In this document: piece by piece, positions 2,723 through 63,983 of the stretch
Layout: each line of letters starts with the position of its first letter
How positions within the stretch are numbered: position 1 is the first letter of the stretch
Source of the DNA: Branchiostoma floridae
Lineage: Eukaryota > Chordata > Leptocardii > Amphioxiformes > Branchiostomatidae
Assembly (NCBI RefSeq): GCF_000003815.2
Contig: NC_049992.1
Span: 1,706,959 to 1,770,958 of the forward strand
Length of the DNA stretch: 64,000 nucleotides
Direction of reading: 5' to 3'
The notes under the pieces: model-generated
What the model was told of the DNA's origin: nothing
Database searches by the model: none
The model's input: only the letters and a program-made list of their open reading frames with translations
Made by a program: the position numbers and the translations under genes

Positions 2723-5700
2723 TTAGCATTGACAACTGGGACAGAACCAATGGCCCCTTGGTTTTCTCTTGATGCCAGCACATTTGTAATGGAACCATTC
2801 TGACTCACATTCATTGTTATCACACTTTACCATCCTACCATATGCTGGTTTCTGACAAGAACAGTAACGTTTGTTTGGGTCATCATCTTCCTGGAAAGTC
2901 ACATCTACTCCAGAGTCTCCACACTGTAACTTGTGGGTCAGTATCTCAGGGATAAGACTGGACTTTACAAACTGGACACATGTAGACAACATTACATTTA
3001 ACAGTGACTGGTCCCTTGGAACATTTACTACAACCATGCCTGCATTAGTCCACACTACAAAATCACATGTTGAGACACCGGTAACCAGCATATGTGTCTG
3101 GACTTGGGTGTAATATCTGTGCCCTGTCTTTAGCTTACAATCCTTATCTAAACAGTAGTTGGCATCTGATAGACACAGATCTGCAGCAGGATAGATGTCC
3201 CTGTACTTGTATGGGCACTTGATCTCAATCACAGTTCTTCCATGGCATGAACACTGTCTCATCCCATCAGGAGATGCACCTATATATACAACAGTAATGT
3301 TCAAATTAGTGGCAAAGTTTCTGATATTTCAAACATGAACATAATGTACTTACTTTTGATACTTGCCAAATGCTGCAAATGGCACATATTCACTTGGTAC
3401 GAATACAGTGCAATTGTTAAAACAAGTACATGTATTTCATTGTTACATCAACAAAATCATAAGTCAATTAGACATTGTGTAGTTGGTACTCAATTACATG
3501 TACTATACTTCATAAGTTTGAAGTAAGAGCCAAAATTAGCTATACCTATGAAGGGAAAATCCTTGTAGAGAATGAGCCCCACTTCCTCCAATTTCACATC
3601 CTTGCAGATGCACAAGGTAGCTTCCAGGTACTGTTGCCTTGCCTTCTCCTCCTGTTTCATCCCCCATTGTATAGCTGGAACCTGAAAGTGAAATTCCCTA
3701 TTTAGAATTTCTGACATAGAAAGCACAAATGAATTACATCTCTAATATGACACTATCTCGCATTGACTGAACATTTAGACTGTCACACTTTGCAGAAATA
3801 TTTAGACTCCTGGTATTGTTTAAATCCAAATAAAGATCAGAGCTACACTTGCTCTGGGATTATTATGGTACATGTTCCAATATACAGGGTAATGTTGTCT
3901 CTTTGTGTGCCTTAATTACCTACGAAAAATGGCTTCCTGCAAGTGTACACTGTACTAGTTTTCAGTTAACTCACTTGGCTCAAATCCTTGCAGTCATATT
4001 GCATGACCTTCCGTACTGCAGTGGTGGGGTTTGATGCATGAAGGACATCATGCATGGATGTAGAAGTCACACGACCCTTGCGTTGCTGACGCCATAAAGC
4101 AGACTTGGACTGCCCCACTGTAGCTTTGTTGAGGTTTGTGATTTGCTCGGGGTTGCACCGAACATCCTCAAGGATGCTGTCTACACTAACACTAGTAACA
4201 GGGACTTTGGCTGGATGACAAGACCTGTATACCACAGGGGGAAGCGTCTCTGTGTTGACATCTGACTCATCTTCTGATGCTGTGTCTGTGTCCTCCTCCT
4301 CTTTAATGACAGCACTGGCAGTGGGACACAGCTTCCTCAGTTGTGAGAAAGCAGAAGCGGCCTCTTCTTCACTGAGTGGTGGCACATCACACTGCGGCTT
4401 CCGGCGCGCCTTCTTGATCTGGACTCCATGTTTAGGGTGCGAAAAGTCCATGTCCTCAGCCCTTTGTGGATCAACCTGAAAGAAATAATCCACAAAATGA
4501 ATTATCAATAATATATGTGAGAAAAAGCATTATACAGTGGCCATGTCAGATATTACACTTTACAAAGAGGAACATCTTAGCCTGCAGTCCAACCTTGTTG
4601 TGCTTTAGTTCGCTCCCAAAGGTCGCTACCCCATGGCATTGACGGGGTAGCCACCGTTGGGAGTGGACTAAAGCACAACAAGGCTGGACTCCAGGCTAGG
4701 AACATCTACTATATTGCTGTAAATCTATAGTGTAGGGCTATATATTGTGAATTGGATACATGTAAATGCCACATGATTTTGTAGAAGCAAAGAAATCCAT
4801 TCATTAATGTAAGTTATAACAGTCTACTTAGGCAAAAAAATTGTAGACATTGAAAAAAATTCTACTCAATTATAATGCCCAAATATGAACAGACCTTATC
4901 TTTGTAATATTTGTTCCACACGGCCTTTCTGCTGGTGCATGACGTCCGTTTTTCCTGAAGAGACCTGGAGGCCTCCACTGCGAACAGCAGTGCAGCCACA
5001 TGGCTGCAGACCTCTCCCAATCTACATTGAAATATAACAAAAAATGAGTATACATTATAGGTACTATAGTCAGGAGCAATTTTAGAGTTAATGGTAAAAG
5101 GAACGGATAAGTTGGCCAGCTTCACAGTACAATGAAAGATTTGCCTTATCTTCTCATTATGGAAGTCTCTGTGATATTTGAATATTTCTACTATATACAC
5201 ATTTCTTTTAGCATTATCTACATCTACATGATGATATGTGTTAGTATACTCACTCTCAGGAACTGTTGATAACTCCAAATTACCTAGAAAACGAAACACA
5301 TCAACAAGTAAAACCTGCAACAAGAACATCAACAAGAAGAAATGCATTTGCAACAGGTACAAATACAACTGGAAACCATCAAGCACAAGAACATGAACCA
5401 AGGAAAAAAATTAAGACAGTTATCTTGCCACATACAAACTGCATGGTCGCTCCTCCCTGGAAATATACGGAGGAACATTTACAGGTGAGTACTAGTTTGA
5501 CTTTCATTCTCTTCGCCAATGGCGATAGAGTATGTTTTTGTCGACTTGGGTCTGTATGTAGGTCAACAGCATATAACTCGAGAAATTGTGGATGGAACTT
5601 TGTGATTTTTGGTAGGTGTGTAGCGGTTGTCGAAAGGAATGCCAAGTTCGAAAACGGTTTACCTGGCGTTTTCCTACGGTACTGCAGCGAGCTTGGTATG

Positions 5701-11257: not shown

Positions 11258-14200
11258 TCAGTCCAGGCAGCAGCCGGGCTCGGCGCAGCAGACGGGCGGG
11301 CACTTGCTGCAGTGGTGCGGGTGGCGGCACTCGGTGTCGTTAACGTACGGGCAGCAGTCGAACGGGCAGCTGCTGCCGTCCTCGCCACGGCCACGGTCAC
11401 AGCGGCCGTCGCCACAGTAGGGCTCGTCGTCAGAGCTGCAGAGAGCAGGAAAAATCATGATAATCAGCTAGACAACCTTCCTCTCTTTTAAAATGTGTTT
11501 CTGGAAATATTGACAGTGGCCGTCGCCATAGTAACGCCCACCGTCGGAGCTGCCGAAAATGCTAGTTTGTGTTTCAAAACGTGTTGAAAAGGGAGTGGAA
11601 AGGTCTCTTTATTTAAAACAATATTGAAACAACTACATGATTCTTTCACTGTTGGAAACAACTACATGTAGTTGCAGCATCTGTATATTGACATTATTAT
11701 TGCATGAGGCAAATTTCAGTCTTCGGACTACTGCCTTGTACTTTGTGTGTGTTATTATAAAGCAGCCCTCGTCGACTCGACGGACGAACAACGTCATATA
11801 CCTAAACCTGTTCTAACTATCATCAAAGTTGTTGATTTGGGTTATCAGCATTATGTGATTCTAGATTTCCCAAAGTTCCTGAAACATAGCAGGAGTTTTC
11901 CCTCACCCGTCCCCTTGTGCGGCTGCCAGGGCGGCTCTCTCACAGCGCAGCTCCAGGCACTTACTGTGCAGCCAGCAGAACGCCGCGCCGGCGTAGATGT
12001 ACCGCTTGTCGCACCTGGGGGGGGGGGGGGTGCCGATTAGAGCTGTCCGTTCATTCACTCACTCACTCATTCATTCATTCACTCACTCAGCGCCGGCGTA
12101 GATGGCGGATAGGGGCAGGTTAGAGCAGTCCGTTCATTCACTCGTTCATTCACTCACTCACTCACTCACTCACTCACTCACTCACTCACTCACTCACTCA
12201 CTCACTCATTCACTCATTCACTCACTCACTCACTCACTCACTTATTCCGGTATAGATGTACCGCTTGTCACACCTGTGGTGGATAGGGGCAGGTTAGAGC
12301 TGTCCGTTCATTCACTCATTCATTCATTTATCCACTCATTCATTCATTCACTCATTCATTCACTCATTCAGTACCGACATAGATGTACCGCTTGTCACAC
12401 CTGTGGGATGGGGTGGGGGTGATGGGGACAGGTTAGAGCCATCCATCTTTACATACATTCATTCATTCATTCACTCATTCATTTGTCACACCTGTATGTG
12501 GGTTGCGGGAGTTAGATCACTGTTCTTGTCACTTGGGCCATTAATTCATTCTTCATTCAATCATTCATTCATCTATTCGTCGATGAAGTTGACACCTAGT
12601 TAGGTACTAACATACACAAAGTAGCAGTTACTCAAGCAAATAGATAAAATTTGGAAACGGGCAGACGTTTCTCCGGGACAGCGTCTGCTGTTTTTCGTCA
12701 GTGACTGTACGACTGAGAGTCTTAGACTAAAATTGGATTTGCGTGATCTGCATAATCTCACGCTTGTAATATGTGTAAGAGTATGAGTTAATGGCAACAA
12801 AGCACAACTTGAAATATTTTCCTTATGTATGAAATCTGTTGAACGATTTGTCAAATGTTCTGTCGCTCATCAATCGCAGCCTGTAGTGGAAAGGGGAGTA
12901 AACTAAAACATACCATTGACAAAGAGTAACGGCGTAATATAAAGGGATTTGAGTCATTTACTAGTCGGACGTTGAATATGGTACCTGCGCGTCCTTTTGT
13001 TTCCGGTAAACAATTCTCGTGTTTCGTGAATATATCATGACGCACAGAAGTTCCGTTTACCACCAGTGCACAAACATTTATGCCATGTTGTATATCCGGA
13101 ACGCCTCTTACAACAACATATTCGAATAGAATACTCACAACAGTGGAGAAGTATTTTACTATTTTACTCAAGAAGACATCTTTCCTCGAACCTTAGATAA
13201 GCGGCCAAATCTGAAAAATGAAACGCTATTTTGGCATGCGTTGCCTTAGGTAAAATAAAGGTTGAAAACCGATATAATATTTCAGTTGTTTTAAATTTAC
13301 CATGTCTTTTCCTGTAATGTTTTCTTGTCTATAGTGAGCCGCATATGTTTACTAATATTGATATTTGGTAAGTTTGAAGGAGGGGGCTTAGCATTTATCA
13401 TCGTAGCCGACGTAGGCTTCTTCTATCTTCCCACACATTGTTTATTTCTTTTGTACACTTCTCCGTATATGAAGGCTTCTTTTGTGCAAATAGACCAATA
13501 AACAGAAACACCCTCACCTCTCCCTGACCGCGGCCTGGCCCTCACAGCCCCCGCAGCGGAACGTGCTGACCGGCTCCCCGGCCCCCAGGTCCTGCCCGCA
13601 CGGCCCGCAGTAAGCGCCTTTAGCGGACGCGAGGTACGTGGTCTGGGGGGAGGAGAAAAGAAAAGTATGGGTATGTTATATAGTAGCCGATGATGACATG
13701 TTTCCAGGTAAGTGGTCTGGTGAGAGGGGAGAAGCACAACGTCATGTATTCGCAAGTTAAGCCATGTTCCTCTTTACTTACTCACCTCCCTGGCTCTGTA
13801 GAGTAGCAGAAAATTGGCCAAAATGCGATGGATAATTACCTTCGACAAGAAGGTTATGTTTTCGGTGTGTGTTTATATGTGTGAGTGTATTTGTCGGTGT
13901 ATGTGCGTGTGTGTGTCTGTGTGTGTGTGTCTGTGTGCCAGTGTCTCTCTCTGTGTGTCTGTGTGTGCCAGTGTACTTGTGTGTGTGTGTGTGTGTGCGT
14001 GTGTGAGAGAGAGAGGGTGTGTGTGTGTGTGTTTGTGTGAGAGAGTGTGTGCGTATGTTTGTGTGTGTATCGGTGATTAAGTGTGCATGTCTGTGTATCT
14101 GTGCGTGTGTGTGTGAACGGCATAAAAATGGCATATCAGGTACACGATATGACACGTGCGGTTTTCATGATATGTGAGGATGAGGATTGATATCACTTGT

Positions 14201-14504
14201 AATTATGAGATGTTGTGCGCTATATGTTATGTTGTCCATGTCAAGAATCAGTCAACATCATGAGTATTACGTGCAAATCCTCTAAAACCCCACCAACCTT
14301 GCCGCAGACGGGCTGCCCGTTGTTCTCGTCGCAGTCGTTGCAGCAGACGTAGTGCTGCATGTGCAGCAGCCCGCCATCTTTGAAGTAAGCGCACTGCCCC
14401 TCGGGAGCCTGCTGCAAGTCCTCGGGAACCTCCCCGTCGGCTCCCCGACACCGGCCGGGCAGCGCGGCGGCCGCACAGAGAACCAGGAGCGCGAGGTGAG
14501 ACAT
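11258..14504 (-). CDS. secreted cysteine-rich protein, paralogue A (4 exons, 205 residues)
   Basis: Exons (-): 14504-14298, 13642-13518, 12014-11907, 11435-11258. Junctions are GT-AG with phases 0, 2, 2, and the sum is 618 nt ending in TGA. Residues 1-21 are a clear signal peptide (MSHLALLVLCAAAALPG, then small residues). The mature chain has 25 cysteines. Exon 1 carries HYVCCNDCDENNG and PVCG; exon 2 has YCGPC and FRCGGC. Exon 3 has RCDKRY, FCWLHSKC and LRC. Exon 4 opens with a CGDGxC...GED..SCPxDC motif, known from many secreted proteins, and ends in CPPVCC and GCCLD. No transmembrane segment is seen, so it is presumably extracellular and disulfide-rich. It is the downstream member of a tandem pair with 16372-18256. 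I do not recognise the family; a structural, matrix or defence role is only speculation. Exon 3's acceptor has a run of 14 C as its pyrimidine tract. Confidence 0.85.
12040..12560. repeat. (ACTC/ATTC)n microsatellite inside intron 2 of paralogue A
   Basis: Long runs of CACT and CATT tetranucleotides are interrupted by three or four copies of a longer phrase containing TAGATGTACCGCTTGTCACA and GGGCAGGTTAGAGC. That phrase copies the 5' part of exon 3 (12000-12014) with adjacent intron, so the exon edge has been carried into the array. Confidence 0.85.
13866..14122. repeat. (GT)n-rich microsatellite in intron 1 of paralogue A
   Basis: A TG/TGTG-dominated run with GAGAGA interruptions on the + strand. 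It produces long spurious open frames on both strands. Confidence 0.9.
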
Positions 14505-14513
14505 CGCGGAGAC

Positions 14514-14640
14514 GGCAAAAGAGTCAGGGAGCTATAGTACGACTGGATACGGAGAGGGCAGAAGAGACTCGGGGCTATCGTACGACTGGATACGGAGAGG
14601 GCAGAAGACTCGGGAGCTATCGTACGACTGGATACCGGGC
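14514..14640. repeat. about 50-bp unit repeated 2.5-3 times upstream of paralogue A
   Basis: Units share CTATCGTACGACTGGATACG and GAGAGGGCAGAAGA. They lie between the conserved promoter block (14681-14753) and the start codon at 14504, so they would be transcribed as 5' leader. Paralogue B lacks them. Confidence 0.8.
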
Positions 14641-14680
14641 TACGCGTCAATGCGAGACGCCACGCAGGATTCTGTCGACT

Positions 14681-14753
14681 TTGTAAAACTGGAAACGTGG
14701 CACGATAACTTACCAGGATGTGCCGCTATCAAATCACTCCGCGTGCTTACCTG
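14681..14753 (-). promoter_or_regulatory. promoter block of paralogue A, shared with paralogue B
   Basis: On the + strand it reads TTTGTAAAACTGGAAACGTG, GCAC, then AGGATGTG, AAATCACTCCGC and TTACCTG, in the same order and similar spacing as 18291-18370 upstream of paralogue B. Most other flanking sequence of the pair is not alignable by eye, so this is either retained from a recent duplication or selected. The TATA position is degenerate here (TTTTACAAAG on the gene strand). Confidence 0.65.
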
Positions 14754-14755
14754 AA

Positions 14756-16371
14756 AACATGTCATCATCGGCTACTAACGTTAGACAGTTACACCCACAC
14801 TGTATACACCTGCGTTTCTATTTTTCGGATAGTTCCATAGCCTTTTTAACGCCGTAGGTGCAGTGGGTTGTAATCCATTGTGTCTAGGGCACGGTATTGG
14901 ATGCCGCAGTCCATCCCTCCATTTCACCTCATTTTAATCTCCAACTGAAGTCAGGTACCCATTTCTACACCTGGGTGGGGTGAGGAAGGTCGTGTCAAGT
15001 GCCTTTCCCATGGCCAAGAGCAAAAGGTCAGTAGCACGACAGGATTTGAACAGAACTGTCTTCTGGGCCAAACACCCTGTAGTTATGCAACACGACCCCA
15101 CTTTTGCATACGTATTTTAATTAATGAAATGATCACCATTATCAATAGGAGTGAAGTGAGTACATGTACGTAACTAGGAGGTTTGGATGCCTATGGCCAA
15201 TGTGCGACGACGGGAGAACTCTGTGTTCTCAATGAAACAAGGATATGCTGTTGTGAAAATCGCGTAGACACCTGTTTATGTATAACTATATAAACCGGTA
15301 TCACTCAGGTGCCATTGTGAACCACAACAATGCCGGCCAATATTACTTTCAATTGTTTTCTTTTAGATTGGCCACATACAACTACTTTTTTGGTACAAAA
15401 TACCTTTTGAAATTATCCTTAAGCTTGTTGGACTGTCACAAATACGTAGAAGTCATGTCTGCCGTATTTTCACATGAGATGTGACATGGAAAGCGTTCTA
15501 TAATCAGAGCCTACCACTTTGTAGTTTTTTAAATCAAAGACGGCCCGGTTATGACATGGCACTCGGCTACCTTTTAGATATCATGATGGTACACAGGACA
15601 CACCGAGAAACCTACACCAGAGGCTGCGACCAAAGATTTGGCAGATAACTTACGAACTTCAAAGATAAGGAAAGGTTTTTAAACGTTTTGTTATACTTAA
15701 TATATTGCATCATAATGTAATTATGGAACAATCAAGGATGAAACTGAAAAAAAAAAACGAATTATACTTGCTGCGTCTCTTAAGTAGTAGTAAGTAGCCT
15801 CTTAAAAGATGATGATAGATGATGATGATGAAGGATAAAACAAATCCAATTTCTGTCTCTGTACAACCGTTCATCGATCGCCATCTACTTAAAAGATCCT
15901 TAAATATTCACATGATAGGAGACATTGTTTCGACTGGCACTGAAAAATGGTACTTTGAGGGTCCAATTATTCAGGCTAGTTAGGAAGTGTTGGGATGGGT
16001 AAGCCTCACCTTCTGTGGGGACTGGATAAGGTGACATAATGTTAAAGCGAATGAACGTAGTATAGAGACAAAAGGTGTTCCTTCTGCTACATGCTGGAGT
16101 TTCGTCCCCATTTGCTCAGTAGCTGTTATTTTTGTGTGTTTCCGCATACTTTGGCCACAGCGACAGCAAATGAGCACAAATCTATGAACATAAATTGCTT
16201 AATATGATAATTTACCAAGTACCGAAAATAGCACAGAGAAAACATAACTTTCTTGGCGAAGGTAATTTTATTCCCCTTCCATATGTTCGGCTAAGTAAAT
16301 TTCTGTATTAGGATGGCAGGTTAACGTTAACATTTCTGGCTTGTCAATGCCATGCTTATACTGACATTTCC
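14756..16371. other. intergenic between the two Cys-rich genes
   Basis: About 14860-15110 resembles an interspersed repeat. It has phrases such as ACACCTGGGTGGGGTGAGGA, AAGTGCCTTTCCCATGGCCA and AGGATTTGAACAGAACTGTC, the last reminiscent of a tRNA-related SINE region; this is unproven. A GATGAT microsatellite lies near 15810. A probable polyadenylation signal for paralogue B lies at 16267-16272. Confidence 0.45.
16267..16272 (-). terminator. candidate polyadenylation signal (AATAAA) of paralogue B
   Basis: AATAAA on the - strand (TTTATT on +), about 100 nt beyond the stop codon at 16372-16374. Confidence 0.5.
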
Positions 16372-18256
16372 TTAGCCCATGCAACAGCCAGGTTGCGAAC
16401 AGCATAACGGTGGACACTGGTAATTGCAACCGCGCCTACACGTCTCCGGGTTGTACCTGGGGCAGCAGTCGAAAGGACAGTTGTAGTGGTCTTCGCCGGG
16501 ATCACACTCGTCGTTCCCACAAAATGCATCATACATGTAACTGCGAACATATATGAAAAAAATATTTAACATAGATTGTGCGTTTTGCCTCGTGCACCTG
16601 AAGAAAGCTTGTTCTGTGATTTTGAACTGATTCTTTTTTGCAGTATAGACTTTTCGAGGTACGATAAAAAGTCTTTTTCTTTACATATATTTAAAAAAAG
16701 TTCACAACGAAACAATGCATAAGGAGCCATGCTGTATCGTGATGACAGATGTTTGTTTACCTTAGACTTGAAAAAGTTTTAGATTGCATTCTACAGGGAA
16801 GCTTGTTAACATGTTGTACTTTCTATTTAAGAAAAGGGGAGAAAAAATTTATGTCACATGTATTTGTCCCACCTGCCACTTTGCAGCAAGGCCTGTTTAT
16901 CTTCTCCATCTTGGGGGAAAAGCCTCTTACAGCGCAGTGCAAAGCAATCAGCCCAGACCCAGCAAAATCCCTTGAAAACCCACCAGTACCTCCTATCGCA
17001 CCTGTTGGTATGTGTTGCGAAAGCGTCATTGATAATCCAGAAAGTTAATACAATATATTTTCGGCATGACCACACAGTTGTGCAGATACAGTAGGTTGGT
17101 GAGACTAGAAGTCCTTATAATTTCCTTCTAGCCATAGTTGCAGGATGTGACCGACAGAGCCTCTACTTATTACGCTTACATGTACATGTATTATTCTCGC
17201 GGATGTCATCAATATAAACAAATCAACATGGTCTTATCATAGAGCACATACAGATTTGGTTTAACTGAATTACAGTAATAGAACAGGTAGGATTATATAC
17301 TGTACTACAATCCACCAACGACAATTTGTAATAGAGACATAGGTTCGAACAAAAAAGCATGTAGCTCTTGTAGCGGGTGTCAGAACCCATCTGTAACGTA
17401 CTAGTGTAGCCAATAATGAATCACACGGACGGAAGTATCTATGTCTAAAATGTTTACCTGTATCTGCCCTAGATGATAAGTTGCGGCTAATAAGTAACAG
17501 TTCCACAATTTCTAAAAATTTCAAGAATATACTTGAATACATTCTACTTCTATTTAGGTTTTCATCACTCACACGGCCTTCACTGTAGTTTGGCCTGCGC
17601 AGCCCCCACAGTCAAAGGGCTCGTTCTTGCTCCGGGCAATGCCATCGTCTTCCCCGCATTTACCGCAGTAGTCCCCATCACTGGCTTTATCGTAGACAGT
17701 CTGTAAGACGAAATGTATTGATCAATATGAACATGTATATTGATCGATACATTTCTTCCGACGCAAAGACATATCAAGTTGCCTAAAGTCGCTATCAATA
17801 CATAGATACTAGCACAGTGCACAACACGGGTCCAAACGAGTTTTGCGTCGAAAGGTTTACATCAAGTTTCATACCAGCCCCTTACTGTCTGTAGCGTCTT
17901 GTGCAAATGTGTAGCCCAGGCGCTATAGAAATAGAAATGGGTACCGCTTCTATATATTTGTTAAAGACGCACGGTCAACTTTCACTTTTTTGCTTTGCTT
18001 CCCGAAAACCGTTAGGTCTGGCGAACGAGGTGATACGCACAGCGGATTACATGTACAATGTTTTTCTACTCACCCCGCCGCATACGGGGTCTCCGTCATT
18101 CTCGTCACAGTTGTTGCAACAGACATAGAAGTGCAGTTTCTTCGGGCCGCCCCAATTGTAATAGCAGCATTGCCCCTCAGGGGGATTAGCAGCGCCCAGG
18201 CACTGGCCTGGGAACGCGGCGACCACACAGAGTACGAACAGCGCTACAAGTGCCAT
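16372..18256 (-). CDS. secreted cysteine-rich protein, paralogue B (4 exons, 202 residues)
   Basis: Exons (-): 18256-18074, 17700-17573, 17001-16873, 16540-16372. All junctions are GT-AG, phases 0, 2, 2 as in paralogue A, and the sum is 609 nt ending in TAA. Residues 1-21 are a signal peptide (MALVALFVLCVVAAFPGQ). The mature chain has 26 cysteines; all 25 of paralogue A have a counterpart. Landmarks: FYVCCNNCDENDG and PVCGG (exon 1), YCGKC and FDCGGC (exon 2), VCDRRY, FCWVWADC and LRC (exon 3), CGNDECDPGEDHYNCPFDC, CPPLCC and GCCMG (exon 4). The tail of exon 3, between LRC and its donor, diverges most between the paralogues in length and sequence. It is expressed presumably from a TATA promoter close to the start codon (18288-18295). 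The family is unrecognised. Confidence 0.87.
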
Positions 18257-18287: not shown

Positions 18288-18370
18288 TATTTATAAAACT
18301 CAAAAGTGGAAACGTGGCACTGACATGTTACAAGGATGTGAAGTTTTGAAATTACTCCGCCTGTATACCT
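18288..18370 (-). promoter_or_regulatory. TATA box and conserved upstream block of paralogue B
   Basis: TATAAATA on the - strand at 18295-18288, about 31 nt before the ATG, implies a very short 5' leader. Directly upstream (18301-18370, + strand reading) come AGTGGAAACGTGGCAC, AAGGATGTG, AATTACTCCGC and TATACCTG, matching the block before paralogue A. Confidence 0.65.
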
Positions 18371-21300
18371 GTTCCTGTATATACTATTGCGTTTTCTTTC
18401 TTTAATATAACACTGGTACCGGTTAGTAGGGCATTCCTCTTTTCATTCCAAGACATTGGTTTGGTACGGATTCAAGGTGGTCACATTTATCTATTGAAGT
18501 AAAAAGCGCCTTTCGAAGTTAGCCATTGTGGACAGTTGCCAATACCCAAAAAAGTCGTGTCGGACGTATCTGTATGTGAGGTGTGATGTGTCTGAGGTCA
18601 AGACCGCATACCTCCACAATGCAAGATGAAAAAATCGGTTTGTCGCTATTGAACGATAAATTAACCCCGTAATTATAAAGACTATGTATTTTACAGAAAA
18701 TTGGAAGAAGGAAAAGAAATTAAAAAGAGCGCACGTCGAAATCTTTCATTCAGGCTCTAGTTAACATTAGTAAGAAATGTGCAACTGGAAAACATGATGC
18801 AAGTTACTGAAATTCCTATTCATCATATGGCACATGGAATGCTTCTTATAGTAATAAGTTAGTAGTACACGACATGTAACGAAATACAAGCTGTAAACTC
18901 TCGTACATGGTCTCCGCCATTTTATGTATAATTAGCACGCTCCGCCCAAACCGCAATGTTTCCTAGCGTAGTTAATAATGGGTTAGTGAAGCTTTTTGAC
19001 TCGGATTCAAATCCAATTAAGTTTATGCCATTTCTTTTTTCTTGCGTTGTATTCGTAGTTGAAATGTTCCTTTACATACGTTTTTGTAAGCCCTGAAAAG
19101 TTATGAAACGAACAACATTGCATAAACCGCTCAATGATATGACAACGCCGGAGGCTACAACCTGTTGCCAAAACAGTCTTTTGGACATGCACGTAGTGAG
19201 GGAATGTTTACTTTTACTTTTCATAGCGATCCAACAGGATTTCGCTCAGCTCTTATGTAACTTGAAGCGCAAACATGAGTCATTATCATCCGGCAGATGA
19301 AAAGAGCTAGCATTGACTTTGTCAGTGCTTTATACTTTTACTTTCCCTTGAATAGCGCATCAAAAAAGTGTCTCTTGCCAAATGAAGTCCTGCAATTATC
19401 GAGTGACTGAATGTTGAGCTATATGGGGAGAATTGATTTGATTTATTTGGGGTCATGTAAAAGTCAATTAAAGCCAGACAATTTGCTGCAACGAAGCTAT
19501 TAGTGTAATAATAGAATAACAGGAGTTATCTTGTCTATGTTCAGGCATAGAAAGGGTTGAAATATTTATTACATTTGAGTTGTGAACATCTGCTCCCATG
19601 TACATCAGTTATTGGACTGGAAAATGAGGTCCTTGAATCCCATTTTAAGTGGCAATGATTTCTCACCCAGTGAATTCACCAGAAATTGGATAAGAGTTCT
19701 TGGAGCAGTACATGCCAGTTCTATGCTGTTCTCAGTGGAAGTACCATGCGAATCTCTGATAAATACAGTCTTCATTTACAGCAGTGAAGGAAACAGACAC
19801 AACACAATTACCTTGCAAAAAATATGTTAAATTCATCAAGTATTTTTGCAATGAAGACCATCAAAATATATTGTGGAAGATCGGTAACATTAGCTAAAAC
19901 ATACACAGAAACTGCACTTCATTTGCATTCGATAGTTGCATTGCATTTGCTCTATTCTATCTATAGCTCACCTATAAAACTACACTATCTCTAATTGAAC
20001 ACGAAGTTGATTAAAAAGAAAAAAAAAGATAGGCAATTCATCCTCAAACAATTCTATAATGATAACATGTCTAAAACTGCTCATAGTTACACACTATCAG
20101 AACTTACGTATGCTGCAAGTCATCAACATTAGTATAACCTTATATCTGGCAGGACACGCCTGTCCAACACCCCAAGCCATCTGTGTACCTTAATAAAGGT
20201 AGAGCCATTGGTGGCTGATGGACACTGTTTTTCATACTGTCTTGCTACTGGTAAATCTCAAATCTGCTTGGAGGTTACAAAACCTACCTAATATTTCAAC
20301 CAACAAACAGGTAACTAACTAAGATAAGGCACCCAATACGTATCTAAGAATGCCGCATTGTTTGTTTGATGACAAGAATGTTGATCTTAGGTTTGCAAGA
20401 GCAAATGCATGGGGAACAGTACTAAGCTCAGTATCATGCACAAATGCAGAATACATGTAAGACATTATATAGACATAATTATACATAATTATTAAATTTC
20501 CACATAACAGAGATTTTTTGCTTCAAAACCTCTCATTTTTTTCCAGAAAGAACAACTGCATTAAGATCAGGTCTCGACTTTCAGAACCAAAATCTGAACC
20601 ATCCTAAGCTACATAATTAATGAACAGGTAACTACATGTAAGGATCTACATCTTAGGTAAGACATCCAGGTAAAATATGCCAAATAAGATCTAGCTTAAA
20701 CTCAAGGCCTGCTTTTACATTAAACTAATTTGTAAATGATATGCTGGCTTGGTTTGAATATATTGTATTACGTGTTCTGTCATATCTATAGCTATCATCC
20801 TCTTATCAAATTACATATTAGCATAAGACATCACATTGCATTGTAATAATCTTCCATATAACCGATCATCGCAGTAAAAACTGACATGGTTGCATTGTAT
20901 TGTCAATATTATCTACAGTAAAGAAAACACCTGGAAACCATGGCAACTGCCCTTTTAAGCAACATCAATTTTCATGGCCATCATTACAACTATCACTAAC
21001 CTATGAGTATCAACAACGTTATTACCTACGTAAGGCACTTCACCGTAAGGCACAGTACTGTACAGTCTATCCATGAACTACATAGCAGCCACACCTGTTG
21101 CAATCTTAAACATTTCAGATGTACGAGATTTGCACAATTCGTCCTTCATATTCCTGATCAGCCTACATGTTGGGTTGGACTTTCCTGTAAGACATCTTCC
21201 TTCAGCAGGACAGCTGCCCGATGCACAAACATGTGGGGGGATGAATAAGAAATAAGGTGCATGACTCAAATTATGGGGCATGGCTTTAAAGTCTAAAGCT

Positions 21301-25900: not shown

Positions 25901-28702
25901 AAATAATATGTTAATTTTCTAACCGGTCCAACATCCGGTCCACCTAATTTTTTCAGGTCCGGTTTTTCTGGACCGGTCCAATAAGAAAAACCGGTTTTGT
26001 ACCGGTACGCTGTACCGATACCCAGCCCTAGTCTCTACTATTAAATGTACTTTTCCGTAACCTCAACAACGGGCTGTAAGTGCCAAAAAACCTCCCACAT
26101 CTATATTCAAAGTTGGACTCAGTGCTTGAATGTATACTGAGATCTTCAAACTTGGGTAAGTCCCAATTTCTTCAGGGTTCAGGCCATGTCAAGTTCAGTC
26201 CTCTTCCATATAACATTATTGACCAACAGACGAACTTGACCTACGTTAGCATCGAGTTCCCCCGTGGTTCCGTCGGCGTGCACGGTGAGGTCAGAGTGCA
26301 CGGTGAGGTCAGAGTACACGTTGAGGTAGCACATGCTCAGTACTTACGTTAGCATCTGGTTCCCCCGCGGTGTCAGAGTGCACGGAGAGGTCAGAGTGCA
26401 CGGTGAGGTCAGAGTGCACAGTGAGGTAGCACATCACGTCCGTCAGTTGGAATTGGCTGCTGTTCTTCAGACAAACCTCCAGCCGAACTGCCTCCTCCTC
26501 TGCCACCAGCCGCACTGCCTCCTCCTCTGCCACCAGCCGCACTGCCTCCTCCTCTGGCACCAGTCTGCAGTCTGGGGAGTTATTCACACTAGTTAGTATC
26601 ATTCCTGCATCTATCCACCCATCTGATCTGGAACTGGTCACTAATACTGTACAGACAAACCTCCAGCCGGACTGCCTCCTCCTCTGGCACCAGTCGGCAG
26701 TCTGGGGGAGTTATTCACACTAGTTAGTATCATTCCTGCATCTATCCACCCATCTGATCTGGAACTGACTAGTACTGTACAGACAAACCTCCAGCCGCAC
26801 CGCCTCTTCTTCTGGCACCAGTCGGCAGTCTGGGGGGATTATTCACACCAGTTAGTATCATTCCTGCATGTATCCACTCATCTGTTCTGGAACTGACTAC
26901 TACAATGTAGTACTGTACAGACAAACCTCCAGCCGAACTGCCTCCTCCTCTGGCACCAGTCGGCAGTCTGGGGGATTATTTCACACTAATTTAACATCAT
27001 TCCATCATTTATCCATCCGTTACTGAAGCACATGATTTTCTGTTAGCTGGCACCCCTTATATTCCTTCCCATAAATACCCAAGCTGTGTGGTATGACGAC
27101 CCCCTGGATTGCTGTCTATAGACTCTGGTTCCATGAATGTTCATACAGCTCTGACCAGGTCGCCTGTATTACCTTTTACTAACCCAGCCCTTACTAATGT
27201 ACCTGGCTCTACCCACAGACTTCTGATCTCTGCAGTTTCTCATCACAATGGGTATTCTAAGCCTCATCAGCCTTACACATGGGTTAGGACCGTGGGGTCG
27301 GAAACTTAATGTTAGAATTTGAATCCTGGCATGTAACTTTGCATGCTGCTGAAAGGGCTGCAGTCCCCGGGACGGGCCCCTAAGGACCACAGTGTGATGT
27401 TTATTCATTTCTGATGGCCACAAGTGCAAGGGAAGTAATACGGTCCAACAACCATGATAAATTGCACATTAAAATCATACGGGGGCCTATGACAATGTAA
27501 CCACATTACAAGTAGGATTGAGACATGAATTCCCATGTCATCCCGACTCACCGATCTCCAGACTCTTCAGCACAAACTGCTCGATGATGGAGTTCACCGT
27601 CTGCACCAGCTCTGCGTTCGTCTGGAAGTTTCCCAGGAGGTTCTGTAAGACATTAAACATTGTCTTCCTTAGTTACAGAAGTTCCCTAGAAGGTTCTGTA
27701 AGACATTAAACATTGTCTTCCTTAGTTACAGAAGTTCTCTAGGACAGTAGAAGGTTCTGTAAGACATCAGACATTGTCTTCCTTAGTTACAGAAGTTTTC
27801 TGTTGGTCTGGAAGTTTCCAAGGAGGTTCTGTAAGACATTAAATATTGTCTTACTTAGTTTTGTGTCAGCCTAGAAGTTTCCTAATTCTGCAGAAAAACA
27901 TCAATTTGCTTGTAGGAAGTCTTTTGTGAAAAAGCTGTTTGAGAATATGAAGATCCCAAATGGATTGTAATGCATTAACTTAAAACCATACCTCCCAAAA
28001 CACAGATCTAAACAAGCCATTAACTGTGTTGTAATATATCATCATGTAATCAGGTACTAGGTAGGTAATACATCTACATTGTACATGCATATCATAATTT
28101 GCAGTAGTGCATACTTTAGCATCAGCATATTTCTTTTTGATGTGTTTTTATTTGCTAATTTGCAGGAAGCCATTGAGTAATAAAGTTTGAACGGTGGGGA
28201 AATTCCGGTGTATACCTAATTGTAATCAAGAGCAGATTTCCCGCCACGCGGCAAACATGTAACGCAATCTGATTGGTCCAAACATTATTACCCGACAGAC
28301 AACGGAAAACAAGCTTGTCATTCTCCTAGGCACGGTCAGACCATTTGGTTATATTGTTTTGGCCTCCGTGACCAGCTTCTAAATCTAATCATGCTCCGCT
28401 AAGTAGATAAACTCTTCATTACGATGAGATGGGAGAGACGCTACCGACGTGCACTCGGATAATTGCACAGCTGATTCTCGTTAAGATTTACAGAAAACTT
28501 TCCCCCGTGAAACACGACTTACAGTTGCCGCTGTTCCCAGCATTGACCTCCCCCCTCCCCCGTGAAACACGACTTACAGTTGCCGCTGTTCCCAGCATTG
28601 ACCTCCCCCCTCCCCCGTGAAACACGACTTACAGTTGCCGCTGTTCCAAGCATCGACCTCACCCCCTCCACCGTCTTCTGCATGGAGCTCATCATGTTGA
28701 TC
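22975..28702 (-). CDS. unidentified protein, exons 2-8 of a spliced gene
   Basis: Exons (-): 28702-28633, 27642-27552, 26571-26348, 25526-25326, 24264-24172, 23578-23426, 23109-22975 (TAG). All junctions are GT-AG and phases are consistent. With exon 1 (ATG at 41431) the sum is 1026 nt, 341 residues. Features: a helical N-terminal part (MSSMQKTVEGVRSML, NLLGNFQTNAELVQTVNS), an acidic triplicated segment (EEEAVRL), then a beta-rich part (LEVCLKNSSQFQL, YHILLEVRLPSPG). The end is helical (CNELLELLVQNTTQDDF, VAWLQEELK). No signal peptide or membrane segment is seen, so it is presumably cytoplasmic or nuclear. The order coiled segment, beta-sandwich-like segment, helical tail recalls adaptor subunits of larger complexes, but I cannot assign a family. 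Exon 5 is the least certain: its donor sits at the edge of a minisatellite. Confidence 0.7.
23560..23870. repeat. minisatellite duplicating the acceptor of exon 7
   Basis: A 48-51 bp unit (AGAAGCACAAGTAGATACAT then GGGAGGCATCAGTACAAACA) recurs four times. The exon-7 edge (TGTGGCTGAACGTACACTGG on +) occurs three times, near 23561, 23744 and 23798. Each copy keeps an AG acceptor context. Confidence 0.85.
23945..24070. repeat. ~20-bp minisatellite in intron 6
   Basis: About six copies of a unit close to AGTACAACCCTGGTACTATT. The unit contains GTAC self-complementary motifs. Confidence 0.8.
24693..25343. repeat. 34-bp minisatellite, about 19 copies, carrying the donor of exon 5
   Basis: On + the unit is GACGTACCTGTTTGGGAGTT then G/A, then AGACGTTGTTTAA. 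On the gene strand each unit contains CAG|GTACGT, the sequence used as the exon-5 donor at 25326/25325. A single position (TTGAGAC or TTAAGAC) varies between units. In window order it reads G A G G G A A G G G A G G A A A A A A. Confidence 0.95.
25598..26030. mobile_element. 433-bp hAT-like MITE, copy 1
   Basis: The left end is TAGGGCTGGGTACCGGTAC and the right end reads, on the complement, TAGGGCTGGGTATCGGTAC. Exact 8-bp direct repeats GTCTCTAC flank it (25590-25597 and 26031-26038). An 8-bp duplication and a TAGGG end fit hAT. The interior has CAGGTCCAGG-rich palindromic stretches. It lies in intron 4 of the gene, between exons 5 and 4. Confidence 0.88.
26230..26400. repeat. duplication of the 3' part of exon 4 with its donor
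   Basis: A phrase containing CACGGTGAGGTCAGAGTGCA and a GTTAGCATC edge occurs in exon 4 (26340-26440) and again at about 26240-26335 inside the next intron. The 18-21 bp subunit (encoding TVHSDL) is itself tandem within the exon. The copied donor reads AAC|GTAGGT rather than AAC|GTAAGT. Confidence 0.8.
26466..26565 (-). repeat. coding tandem repeat in exon 4
   Basis: A 27-bp unit (CTCTGCCACCAGCCGCACTG plus CCTCCTC) is present three times in frame, giving VAEEEAVRL-type repeats in the protein. Frame is kept, so the expansion lengthens an acidic segment. Confidence 0.85.
26640..26990. repeat. three ~150-bp tandem copies of the exon 4 acceptor region
   Basis: Each copy holds ACAGACAAACCTCCAGCCG, the exon edge GGCACCAGTCGGCAGTCTGG, and intron sequence TTAGTATCATTCCTGCAT. 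The copies lie in the intron upstream of exon 4 on the gene strand, so each offers a decoy acceptor and partial exon. Confidence 0.85.
27640..27860. repeat. ~60-70 bp tandem copies of the exon 3 acceptor
   Basis: Units share AGGTTCTGTAAGACATTAAA then ATTGTCTTCCTTAGTTACAG. Four copies, diverging outward, repeat the exon-3 edge and its upstream intron. Confidence 0.85.
28500..28665. repeat. ~57-bp tandem copies of the exon 2 donor
   Basis: Three copies of CCCCGTGAAACACGACTTAC then AGTTGCCGCTGTTCC. On the gene strand each carries the ACT|GTAAGT donor of exon 2. Confidence 0.88.
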
Positions 28703-56744: not shown

Positions 56745-58415
56745 CGAGGCTGGAACATGGCCCAAGCCACGATGATTCGGTCAGGACAGAACGGGAGGCT
56801 GGAACATGGCCCGAGCCACGGATAATTGGTCAGGGCAGAACGGGAGGCTGGAACATGGTCCGAGCCACGGATAATTGGTCAGGGCAGAACGGGAGGCTGG
56901 AACATGGCCCGAGCCACGGATAATTGGTCAGGACAGAACGGGAGGCTGGAACATGGTCCGAGCCACGATGATTCAGTCAGGACAGAACGGGAGGCTGGAA
57001 CATGGCCCGAGCCACGATGAGTCAGTCAGGACAGAACGGGAGGCTGGAACATGGTCCGAGCCACGATGATTCAGTCAGGACAGAACGGGAGGCTGGAACA
57101 TGGCCCGAGCCACGATGAGTCAGTCAGGACAGAACGGGAGGCTGGAACATGGTCCGAGCCACGATGAGTCAGTCAGGGCAGAACGGGAGGCTGGAACATG
57201 GTCCGAGCCACGATGAGTCGGTCAGGACAGAACGGGAGGCTGGAACATGGCCCGAGCCACGATGAGTCAGTCAGGGCAGAACGGGAGGCTGGAACATGGT
57301 CCGAGCCACGATGAGTCGGTCAGGACAGAACGGGAGGCTGGAACATGGCCCGAGCCACGATGAGTCAGTCAGGACAGAACGGGAGGCTGGAACATGGCCC
57401 GAGCCACGATGAGTCAGTCAGGACAGAACGGGAGGCTGGAACATGGTCCGAGCCACGGATAATTGGTCAGGACAGAACGGGAGGCTGGAACATGGTCCGA
57501 GCCACGATGATTCAGTCAGGACAGAACGGGAGGCTGGAACATGGCCCGAGCCACGATGAGTCAGTCAGGACAGAACGGGAGGCTGGAACATGGCCCGAGC
57601 CACGGATAATTGGTCAGGACAGAACGGGAGGCTGGAACATGGTCCGAGCCACGATGATTCAGTCAGGACAGAACGGGAGGCTGGAACATGGCCCGAGCCA
57701 CGATGAGTCAGTCAGGACAGAACGGGAGGCTGGAACATGGTCCGAGCCACGATGATTCAGTCAGGACAGAACGGGAGGCTGGAACATGGCCCGAGCCACG
57801 ATGAGTCAGTCAGGACAGAACGGGAGGCTGGAACATGGTCCGAGCCACGATGAGTCAGTCAGGGCAGAACGGGAGGCTGGAACATGGTCCGAGCCACGAT
57901 GAGTCAGTCAGGGCAGAACGGGAGGCTGGAACATGGCCCGAGCCACGATGATTCAGTCAGGACAGAACGGGAGGCTGGAACATGGCCCGAGCCACGATGA
58001 GTCAGTCAGGACAGAACGGGAGGCTGGAACATGGTCCGAGCCACGATGAGTCGGTCAGGACAGAACGGGAGGCTGGAACATGGCCCGAGCCACGATGAGT
58101 CAGTCAGGGCAGAACGGGAGGCTGGAACATGGTCCGAGCCACGATGAGTCAGTCAGGGCAGAACGGGAGGCTGGAACATGGTCCGAGCCACGATGAGTCA
58201 GTCAGGGCAGAACGGGAGGCTGGAACATGGTCCGAGCCACGATGAGTCGGTCAGGACAGAACGGGAGGCTGGAACATGGTCCGAGCCACGATGAGTCGGT
58301 CAGGACAGAACGGGAGGCTGGAACATGGCCCGAGTCACGATGATTCAGTCAGGACAGAACGGGAGGCTGGAACATGGCCTGAGCCACGATGATTCGGTCA
58401 GGACAGAACGGCAGA
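56745..58415. repeat. 49-bp minisatellite, about 34 copies
   Basis: The unit is GAGGCTGGAACATGGTCCGA then GCCACGATGAGTCAGTCAGG and ACAGAACGG. Variants are TGGTCCG/TGGCCCG, GATGAGTCAG/GATGATTCAG/GGATAATTGG and GGACAG/GGGCAG. The total of 1.67 kb equals 34 x 49. It is very homogeneous, hence probably recent. Confidence 0.98.
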
Positions 58416-61451: not shown

Positions 61452-62327
61452 TCAAGAGAACATCCCGATATTAGGTATGCGGCCCCTATCCTGGGACTCT
61501 TCTGTGATTCTCAACATAGCCAGGGCCTCCCTCATGATTTTTGTGAGTTTTACCCTTGTCAGGAAGGCCCCACTCTTGAATCTAAACAGTGGACCATCTT
61601 TGTACCGCCTAGATAGATATAGCTCCCTCATGGCTTTTACAGGGCACCAAGCTGTGTAGGTTTGTCCCAAAACAATAGGTACCCCTTTTCTCCCTGGGTC
61701 AGTCTTTGACCCCTTAATAAGGATTCGGATATAGTTCGGCTGGTATAAATTTGGTACAAAAGCTACATCCTGCCATTGTAGATGGAGGACTGGATTGAAT
61801 TTTTTCCATGAGTCACAAGTGAATTCCCCCACTCTCAAGAAACCAAAGAATGCCACCAAGAAGGCTGCTTGCATCACTAATTTGTCATACGATTCCCGTT
61901 GGAAGATGAGTTCCATTTTACTGCAAAGCCCTTGTAAAATGGTGAGTGTTACTGGCAAGCGTATTCTCACTGGCTTCTGACCTTTAGAATTCCTTATACC
62001 TTGTAACATGCGACTAATAAGGAAGGATTCTTTTGTCGGGTCCTCCCAGCCCTGTTCCAAGTGCATATTGCGTATTGCGCTTAAGTATACATTGATGGTA
62101 CCATATGAAACTGTCTGGGTCAAGGAAAGGATGAAGTACACTATTGTATGTTCAGAGGCAGGTAAAATGTTACCCCGTTCATCCCAGAGTTGGTGTTTTA
62201 AGCAAAATTGAAGGAATTGTGATACTCCTGTCGAGTACGTTTTCCTTGTCTTGGGTTTTAGAGCTGCTAGAAAGTACTCCTGAGCTCGCCTTCTTAGGTC
62301 AGCATCAGTGATGCGGGGATGGAGCAA
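61452..62327 (-). CDS. tyrosine recombinase of the DIRS-type element (C-terminus frame-shifted)
   Basis: A frame of 291 residues. It begins with an N-terminal core-binding-like helical part (RRRAQEYFLAALKPKTRKTY), then the catalytic domain with the first active-site arginine R165 (FFGFLRVGEFT) and the SKTDPGRKG turn. The usual HxxR part is not visible and the frame stops at 61452. The expected C-terminal signature (LGRWTSECYKLYI, containing the nucleophile tyrosine) lies downstream in another frame at about 61380-61420. The start overlaps the RNase H frame in a different register, as is common in these elements. As it stands it cannot encode a complete recombinase in one frame. Confidence 0.82.
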   Translation of the reverse strand: MLHPRITDADLRRRAQEYFLAALKPKTRKTYSTGVSQFLQFCLKHQLWDERGNILPASEHTIVYFILSLTQTVSYGTINVYLSAIRNMHLEQGWEDPTKESFLISRMLQGIRNSKGQKPVRIRLPVTLTILQGLCSKMELIFQRESYDKLVMQAAFLVAFFGFLRVGEFTCDSWKKFNPVLHLQWQDVAFVPNLYQPNYIRILIKGSKTDPGRKGVPIVLGQTYTAWCPVKAMRELYLSRRYKDGPLFRFKSGAFLTRVKLTKIMREALAMLRITEESQDRGRIPNIGMFS

Positions 62328-62690
62328 GAAACTGGGGCAGCTTTGGGGGCCAGCTGTCTGAATTTGTCCATCTGAAATCGAGATAGAGCATCAGCTATGC
62401 TGTTCTCTTCACTTGACAGATGTACGGCTTTTAACACAAAGTTCTGTTCCAAAGATTGAGCTACAATTGGTCTGATTAAATCCATGATCTCAGGTACTTT
62501 AGATTTCATTGTATTGATTATGGCTACCACTGACTCATTGTCACACCACACTGTTACCCTCTTGCTCTGGAAATGGGTCCCCCATATGACGCATGCTACT
62601 CTAATGGGATACAGTTCCTGCCATTCAATGCTTAGTCCTGCCTTGCCACTTGTCAGTTTGTATTGTTCTGGCCATTGCCCATTAAACCAC
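62294..62690 (-). pseudogene. RNase H region of the DIRS-type element, N-terminal part missing
   Basis: The open frame ends at 62294 and reads up to about 62690. It shows ELYPIRVACVIWG, VTVWCDNESVVAIIN, VPEIMDLIRPIVAQ and SSEENSIADALSR, the second half of a DIRS-type RNase H. The first half, with the usual first catalytic aspartate, is absent. The sequence joins directly to the end of the reverse transcriptase in another frame, consistent with an internal deletion. Confidence 0.75.
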
Positions 62691-63660
62691 TGTCCTTTCC
62701 AAAAGCCCCCAAAGCCTTCTGCAGTTCCTTAAGGGTACATCTAGTTCGGGACCCCCATTCTGCAAAGCTACTCTTCAGGCGTTGAAGTTTGTCTGATGGC
62801 AGTCTTGCTTCTTGTGCTACTGAGTCTAATTCAATCCCCATGAATACCATAACTTTTGCCGGTCCCTCTGTTTTTTCCTCTGCTATGGGGACCCCCAAGT
62901 TATGAAATACTTGCAGGAGCGTTTGTAGATTTTGCCTACATTGTTGATCATTTGGCCCTACTGTTGCTAGCAGAAAGTCGTCCAATATGTGGATAATCTC
63001 ACCTATGTGATAGTTGTTCTTTAGGATCCATTCTAACAAGTCCGAAAAGGTGCTAAATATGAATGGGGCGGACCGCAGACCAAAACATAGGCATTTATCA
63101 TAAAAATATTCATTTTTCCAACAGATACCAAAGAGCTCATGTTCACTTTTATGTAGAGGGATCACCCTGTATGCAGACTTTATGTCCGTCTTGGCCATGA
63201 AGGCTCCCTTGCCCAGACGTTTCAACATGGCAATTGCATCATCTATAGTAACATATTTCACTGAGAAATCAGTTTTTGAAATTGAGTCATTGATGCTGTC
63301 CCCCTCTGGATGAGATAGATGGTAAATAGTCCTCCAATTACTGCTATGTTTTTTAGGGACCACTCCAATTGGGTGGTATTGAAAGTTCGGAAACGGTGGC
63401 TGTGCAAAAGGTCCTACCAATCTTCCTTGTTGCAGCTCTTTTCGAATGTTTTCCTCTATGCTTTCCGGATTTTTCTTACATGACACGAGGTTGTTTGACG
63501 TTCTGGGGGCTCTCGGCCCCTTGTATCCTGTTGTGAACCCTTCTTTAAAGCCTTTTGTAACATAAGAGACTAACTGTCTATTGGGATGCATCAATAACTC
63601 TTTTTCTAGTACATGGATTCTAATGGGTGTCACTAGCCCAGGGTCATAATTATACAGCAC
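62653..63660 (-). CDS. reverse transcriptase of the DIRS-type element
   Basis: A frame of 335 residues. Motifs in order: PIGVVPKKHSSNWRTIYHLS (about 98-116), TDIKSAYR with D159, FGLRSAPFIFSTF (193-205), the active site HILDDFLLA with D227/D228, then VFMGIELDS (272-280). These are typical of DIRS/Ngaro reverse transcriptases. The frame continues past LKELQKALGAF into about 15 unrelated residues before a stop. There the reading shifts relative to the RNase H, marking the break. Start codon choice is uncertain: the natural start probably lies in an upstream fusion with Gag. Confidence 0.85.
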   Translation of the reverse strand: MLYNYDPGLVTPIRIHVLEKELLMHPNRQLVSYVTKGFKEGFTTGYKGPRAPRTSNNLVSCKKNPESIEENIRKELQQGRLVGPFAQPPFPNFQYHPIGVVPKKHSSNWRTIYHLSHPEGDSINDSISKTDFSVKYVTIDDAIAMLKRLGKGAFMAKTDIKSAYRVIPLHKSEHELFGICWKNEYFYDKCLCFGLRSAPFIFSTFSDLLEWILKNNYHIGEIIHILDDFLLATVGPNDQQCRQNLQTLLQVFHNLGVPIAEEKTEGPAKVMVFMGIELDSVAQEARLPSDKLQRLKSSFAEWGSRTRCTLKELQKALGAFGKDSGLMGNGQNNTN

Positions 63661-63710
63661 GGATTTCGTTGAACAGGTTTTGACGGAGAGACCTGCAAGT
63701 GTAACAGGAA

Positions 63711-63983
63711 TTAGTTGTATTGAGTGCCAGTTTTGCTGGTGACCCTGGGGTTGACCCCTGGACAGTTGTGCTTGCCATGGGTGTTATTCTCACATCGACT
63801 ACATACATGTTTAAATCCACATGGAACCCTATTGCACCCCCATGGAGAATTGAATCCGTAACAGAAGCCGGGGTTTGCCTGGCCTGGTTTTGGCCTGACT
63901 GAGCTGGACCCTGGTTTAGAGGTCACAGCCTTTGCAGGGCATTCTTTTGCCCAATGGCTGGGTGAATGACAAATAGTGCACAT
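63711..63983 (-). CDS. Gag-like zinc-finger region of the DIRS-type element (partial)
   Basis: It contains a CCHC knuckle (CTICHSPSHWAKEC), then CYGFNSPWGCNRVPCGFKHV followed by CSRCENNTHGKHNC. Such Cys/His arrays occur at the end of DIRS/Ngaro Gag proteins and bind nucleic acid. The frame is open upstream to the window edge, so the protein starts outside. It ends 50 bp before the reverse transcriptase frame. Confidence 0.75.
   Translation of the reverse strand: MCTICHSPSHWAKECPAKAVTSKPGSSSVRPKPGQANPGFCYGFNSPWGCNRVPCGFKHVCSRCENNTHGKHNCPGVNPRVTSKTGTQYN

Follow-up and report, generated by a model that had tools for sequence, protein, structure and literature searches.

Two neighbouring genes for cysteine-rich proteins

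The stretch of the Branchiostoma floridae genome analyzed here (64,000 nucleotides of contig NC_049992.1; hereafter the window) carries on its minus strand two neighbouring genes, A (11258-14504) and B (16370-18256), each of which encodes a small cysteine-rich protein in four exons. With moderate confidence we read A and B as functional secreted members of a disulfide-rich family of four genes, the other two of which (C and D) lie outside the window; in this reading gene C displays the common module and A and B are released. The exons of A and B were re-derived by script, which bore out the models drawn in an earlier note on this DNA, with products of 205 (A) and 202 (B) residues and intron phases of 0, 2 and 2 in either gene; all six introns are GT-AG.

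Gene A exon 1, 14298..14504, minus strand: start codon, putative signal peptide and the first 5 frame cysteines; donor GTTGGT, phase 0
Gene A exon 2, 13518..13642, minus strand: CGPC and CGGC pairs; entered in phase 0, left in phase 2
Gene A exon 3, 11907..12014, minus strand: CDxRY..FCW....C..LRC; entered and left in phase 2
Gene A exon 4, 11258..11435, minus strand: 12 cysteines; stop codon immediately past ...PGCCLD
Gene B exon 1, 18074..18256, minus strand
Gene B exon 2, 17573..17700, minus strand
Gene B exon 3, 16873..17001, minus strand
Gene B exon 4, 16370..16540, minus strand: includes the stop codon; AATAAA lies 97 bases past the stop

The hydrophobic N-termini of both proteins read as putative signal peptides. 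These were placed at the first 22 residues by eye and by hydropathy, and the counts of mature cysteines rest on that placement: 25 in A, from a total of 27, and 26 in B, from a total of 28.

Fragments of its own exons are found in two introns of gene A. Intron 2 contains truncated copies of the 3' splice site and first bases of exon 3, set amid TCAC/TCAT repeats, and intron 3 contains a decayed exon 4 start with its splice site (window 11513-11556; 79.5% over 44 bp).

Exon 3 copies in gene A intron 2, two clear and one fragmentary: window 12247-12311, 12374-12421 and 12090-12137

Relatedness of A and B and their cysteine frame

The two proteins are 48% identical in a MAFFT alignment and 44% identical by blastp against a one-sequence database (E 1e-56). 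Their alignment score is 498, whereas 1000 shuffles in which the B cysteines were held in place averaged 68 and did not exceed 141; the likeness of A and B therefore exceeds what the cysteine frame alone provides, and a chance match between two cysteine-rich readings is ruled out by this cysteine-preserving test.

All 25 mature cysteines of A had been described as matched in B. This holds for 24 of them, which fall in a B cysteine column in the strict alignment, but not for the remaining one: A C189 lies opposite a gap, and B C185 becomes its counterpart only with a two-residue shift and with a different spacing. B C31 is an additional cysteine. Alignment of A, B and C gives 24 cysteines invariant in all three (exons 1-3 hold 13 and exon 4 the other 11), to which A adds one and B two, and shows the exon 3 tail to vary in length. 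An even core of 24 cysteines would fit 12 disulfides. Exon 2 of both A and B has the spacing CxxC-x14/15-CxxC, and exon 4 opens with CGDGxC in A and C, with CGNDEC in B and with CGDDNC in D.

A family of four genes

The whole assembly (513,431,437 bases, in which the window is C14:1706959-1770958) was searched at E up to 10 with the proteins of B, C and A as queries; in these searches the match counts of large families are lower bounds. The matches fall inside genes A-D in 15 of 16 cases with query B, 17 of 17 with C and 14 of 14 with A, together 46 of 47. The description of A and B as a tandem pair is thus right insofar as they are paralogous neighbours, but incomplete, as the genome searches give four family genes. 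The family members found in this genome are A, B, C and D. Within the window, tblastn below E 0.2 gave, apart from A and B themselves, only two short echoes of exon 3 in the A intron. A weak match on contig C6 was considered as a fifth relative and dropped, as it has 2 of the 7 cysteines that B carries in the aligned stretch; its E value is 0.65 genome-wide and 3e-05 against the four extracted loci only.

Gene C (C14:1677875-1680086) lies on the same strand as A and B, about 38 kb past the 3' end of A, and has four exons with phases 0, 2 and 2 that encode 240 residues. Gene D is located on another contig (C13:5984158-5986384). The reading frame is open in exons 1, 3 and 4, its GT-AG sites occur at places matching those of the other members, and by eye the cysteines of these three exons are the same as those of the A/B/C frame (D stood outside the A-B-C alignment).

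The four genes differ at their 3' ends. Gene C runs on past the last cysteine pair with VTSGSPNMEGGRAAVLAAISLLAYAFRWLFG, and the best 15-residue hydropathy of this tail (1.81) is reached by 11 of 10000 random tails drawn from the composition of C. The tail would be a C-terminal hydrophobic stretch behind small residues, putatively of the kind that directs a glycosylphosphatidylinositol (GPI) anchor, and C seems from its sequence to be tethered at the cell surface. Proteins A and B have no tail, their last cysteine pair being followed by two residues, so that they look like free secreted forms; together they appear to form the free branch of a family in which other members are tailed.

Searches for known families

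The earlier note had called this family unrecognised, and had stated that a profile search placing both proteins in a well-characterised family would refute this. No family, whether Ly6/uPAR, granulin, defensin, EGF, LNR, VWC or any other, was returned by Pfam at E up to 10 for whole A, B or C, and eight sub-stretches of A and B gave only two noise matches (E 2.7, to the archaeal TRASH domain, and E 9.3) and none for exon 4, with the caveat that the HMMER filters discard most weak matches. NCBIfam gave noise only, and PHROGs nothing at E up to 1, for A and B. A search of PDB sequences at E up to 10, made with B and with profiles of A-B, of exon 4 and of A-B-C, returned nothing; exons 1-3 of A gave a single noise match (E 1.1). 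No relative was confirmed among virus contigs and prokaryote genomes. In the literature, no title or abstract start describing the family was found among the matches listed, and six sequence words taken from A and B had no occurrence in the papers searched. The family is unrecognised within Pfam, NCBIfam, PHROGs, PDB and the virus and prokaryote collections, and the claim is limited to these. The same results bear on the opening motif of exon 4, CGDGxC..GE..CPxDC, which had been said to be common in secreted proteins. This was not confirmed, exon 4 having no Pfam or PDB match; in whole-protein searches of this genome the motif occurred in no fifth gene.

The strongest alternative follows from the range of these searches. 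The four genes may be part of a broader animal family, annotated elsewhere, for which Pfam and NCBIfam have no model. The family would then be new to the libraries searched though not to biology as a whole, and the mechanism proposed below would be unchanged. We regard this as a real possibility, though one somewhat short of even: the searches covered collections of prokaryotes and viruses, curated models, solved structures and, among animals, only the window's own genome. The absence of a Pfam match at E up to 10 for three members and the finding of only four genes in the genome argue against it.

Selection and charge

Comparison of A and B gives 0.46 nonsynonymous substitutions per site (dN) and 1.79 synonymous substitutions per site (dS) by NG86, and dN 0.43 and dS 1.53 by LWL85. 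When the two genes are compared part by part, dN is the lower of the two values in the signal peptide, in the mature portion of exon 1 and in exons 2 and 3; for exon 4, dS is not computable. Across the six pairs of genes A-D (exon 2 being excluded from pairs involving D) dN ranges from 0.34 to 0.53 and is below dS in all five pairs with a computable dS, the exception being B-C. The pattern is one of long-term constraint with near-saturated silent sites and is not a sign of diversifying selection. The proposal that the loops are under diversifying pressure is accordingly not supported, dN being lower than dS wherever dS could be estimated; with dS near saturation, brief diversifying episodes may have escaped detection.

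These values bear on a second alternative, that A and B serve in immunity as antimicrobial or recognition effectors, with selection diversifying their loops and leaving the cysteine frame intact. Such a role would suit a tandem of putatively secreted, cysteine-rich proteins that are 48% identical and differ in the length of the exon 3 tail. However, the excess of dS over dN just described speaks against it, as do the small number of copies found and the charge of the proteins: the net charge is -13 for mature A, -9 for mature B and -1 for C without its tail, and the corresponding isoelectric points are 4.75, 4.62 and 6.45. None of the three is net positive, as the mature protein of a cationic antimicrobial peptide is expected to be, and the acidity of A and B is unlike the charge of typical peptides of that class; C is near neutral, so that acidity is not a family trait. 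We consider the immune-effector reading unlikely.

An upstream block common to A and B

Genes A and B, read above as released family members, also resemble each other 5' of their start codons.

Gene A upstream block, 14685..14753, minus strand: 78.6% identical to that of gene B (E 5e-12)
Gene B upstream block, 18302..18371, minus strand: found by sequence match; TATAAATA lies just downstream at 18288-18295 (by eye)
Minisatellite of 43 bp x 3, 14507..14635, no strand assigned: between the gene A upstream block and the start codon

The block spans 70 bp, and its score against A was reached by none of 300 random 500-base stretches drawn from window 20000-63500. By comparison, the best match between the introns of A and B has an E value of 0.22, no better than chance. 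The 600 bases 5' of C and those 5' of D yielded no such block at E up to 0.05, in a run made without an A-B control. Since TATAAATA is so near the start codon of gene B, the 5' leader would be very short. The simplest reading of the block is conserved shared regulation, which suggests that A and B are probably expressed together; gene conversion as the source of the likeness is another reading.

Other features of the window

An open frame at 377-1486 matches DDE_Tnp_4 and HTH_Tnp_4 and is that of a transposase. Between genes C and A, an open frame at 2726-3328 has a YqaJ-like recombinase match; it also matches a PHD finger, though below the cut-off of that model. At 26242-27015, minisatellites with units of 18, 27, 100 and 128 bp overlap an open frame that may be part of another gene (Pfam E 0.007, a weak match under the curated cut-off). 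Among the many minisatellites of the window, one at 56746-58411 consists of 34 copies of a 49-bp unit at 94%. Retroelement frames occupy 61455-63783, with a reverse transcriptase match (RVT_1) and a phage-integrase SAM-like match, the latter short of its cut-off.

Proposed function

The features of the four genes suggest the following mechanism. Genes A and B would be transcribed together, and their proteins would be made with a signal peptide and secreted. Up to 12 disulfides would close the 24-cysteine frame, giving a compact extracellular unit with two parts, one formed by exons 1-3 (13 frame cysteines) and the other by exon 4 (11). In gene C the GPI-anchor-like tail would hold this unit on the cell surface, and the proteins of A and B, which stop at the final cysteine pair, would be released. 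Both are most likely products of a secretory epithelium that bind or cross-link a target outside the cell, such as matrix, mucus or a ligand.

A number of observations weigh against this account. Mature A has an odd number of cysteines (25), which implies that one is free or bonded to another chain. An arginine lies close to the end of the C tail, and the tail of D, although related to that of C and sharing the same GSPN, is much less hydrophobic. Exon 2 of gene D (5163-5294 of the extracted D locus, contig C13) is not open in one frame in this assembly, and the genome search likewise splits it in two, so that a member of this family can lose its frame. The first donor of gene A, GTTGGT, is weak, and the AATAAA/ATTAAA nearest to its stop codon is 1054 bases downstream, compared with 97 in B. 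A fold prediction for exon 4 only, made from two sequences, had a mean predicted local distance difference test score (pLDDT) of 46.6; it was uninformative and was not used. Finally, the 14-base core of the upstream block, GTGCCACGTTTCCA, has 5 exact sites in the genome (2 of them those of A and B), equal to the 5 of its reversed control, and its 2 sites in the window are matched by 6 of 100 shuffles when up to two mismatches are allowed; as a genome-wide signal the core was rejected, there being no excess over the reversed control.

Two further alternatives concern the nature of the proteins and the state of gene A. Exons 1 and 2 have CxxC pairs (CNNC or CNDC, CGxC, CGGC) that might bind zinc or another metal, making this a metal-binding secreted protein rather than mainly a disulfide-bonded one. 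The exon 2 spacing of A and B does resemble zinc ribbons, but the putative signal peptide and the even number of frame cysteines favour disulfides, and no credible Pfam metal-binding model was matched, the archaeal TRASH hit being noise; we judge this reading improbable. Slightly less probable still is that gene A is a decaying, non-working copy. Its donor and distant poly(A) signal would fit decay, as would the minisatellites and the truncated copies of exons that lie in its introns and 5' flank, but it retains an open frame of 205 codons, all 24 of the frame cysteines, a conserved upstream block and a dN below dS against B, C and D.

The reading of A and B as released members of a disulfide-rich family has a tentative extension, which we hold as possible and rather less likely than the reading itself. 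The family may represent an undescribed, lancelet-restricted 24-cysteine architecture in which the GPI-anchored form is the older; loss of the anchor would have given rise beside it to the two free, co-regulated forms, which would act as soluble competitors of the surface form. Proteins of surface, mucus and defence that are particular to one animal lineage often belong to small cysteine-rich secreted families, which annotation tends to miss. If the 24-cysteine frame is a new fold, a domain family is added to chordate biology; if relatives exist elsewhere, the gene set helps to date and name the family. This one genome offers a compact, testable set: one member that is probably anchored, two that are free and have an upstream block in common, and a copy whose frame is broken.

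Comparison with known systems

Proteins with the motif CGDGxC..GE..CPxDC, a label taken from the earlier note, resemble the exon 4 start of A and C; no curated model, PDB sequence or prokaryote or virus contig confirmed the link, and no known family can be named from it. Granulins and big defensins are alike in having a signal peptide, a high cysteine content and adjacent cysteines. The proteins described here differ from them in cysteine spacing, in the acidity of mature A and B and in having no Pfam match. There is a likeness in layout to the Ly6/uPAR (three-finger) proteins. The family here differs from these in its 24-cysteine frame, its three introns at phases 0, 2 and 2 and its lack of a Pfam match, and the analogy is thus one of layout only; in that layout the two would agree, Ly6/uPAR proteins being small and cysteine-rich, encoded by tandem genes and found as both GPI-anchored and free secreted members.

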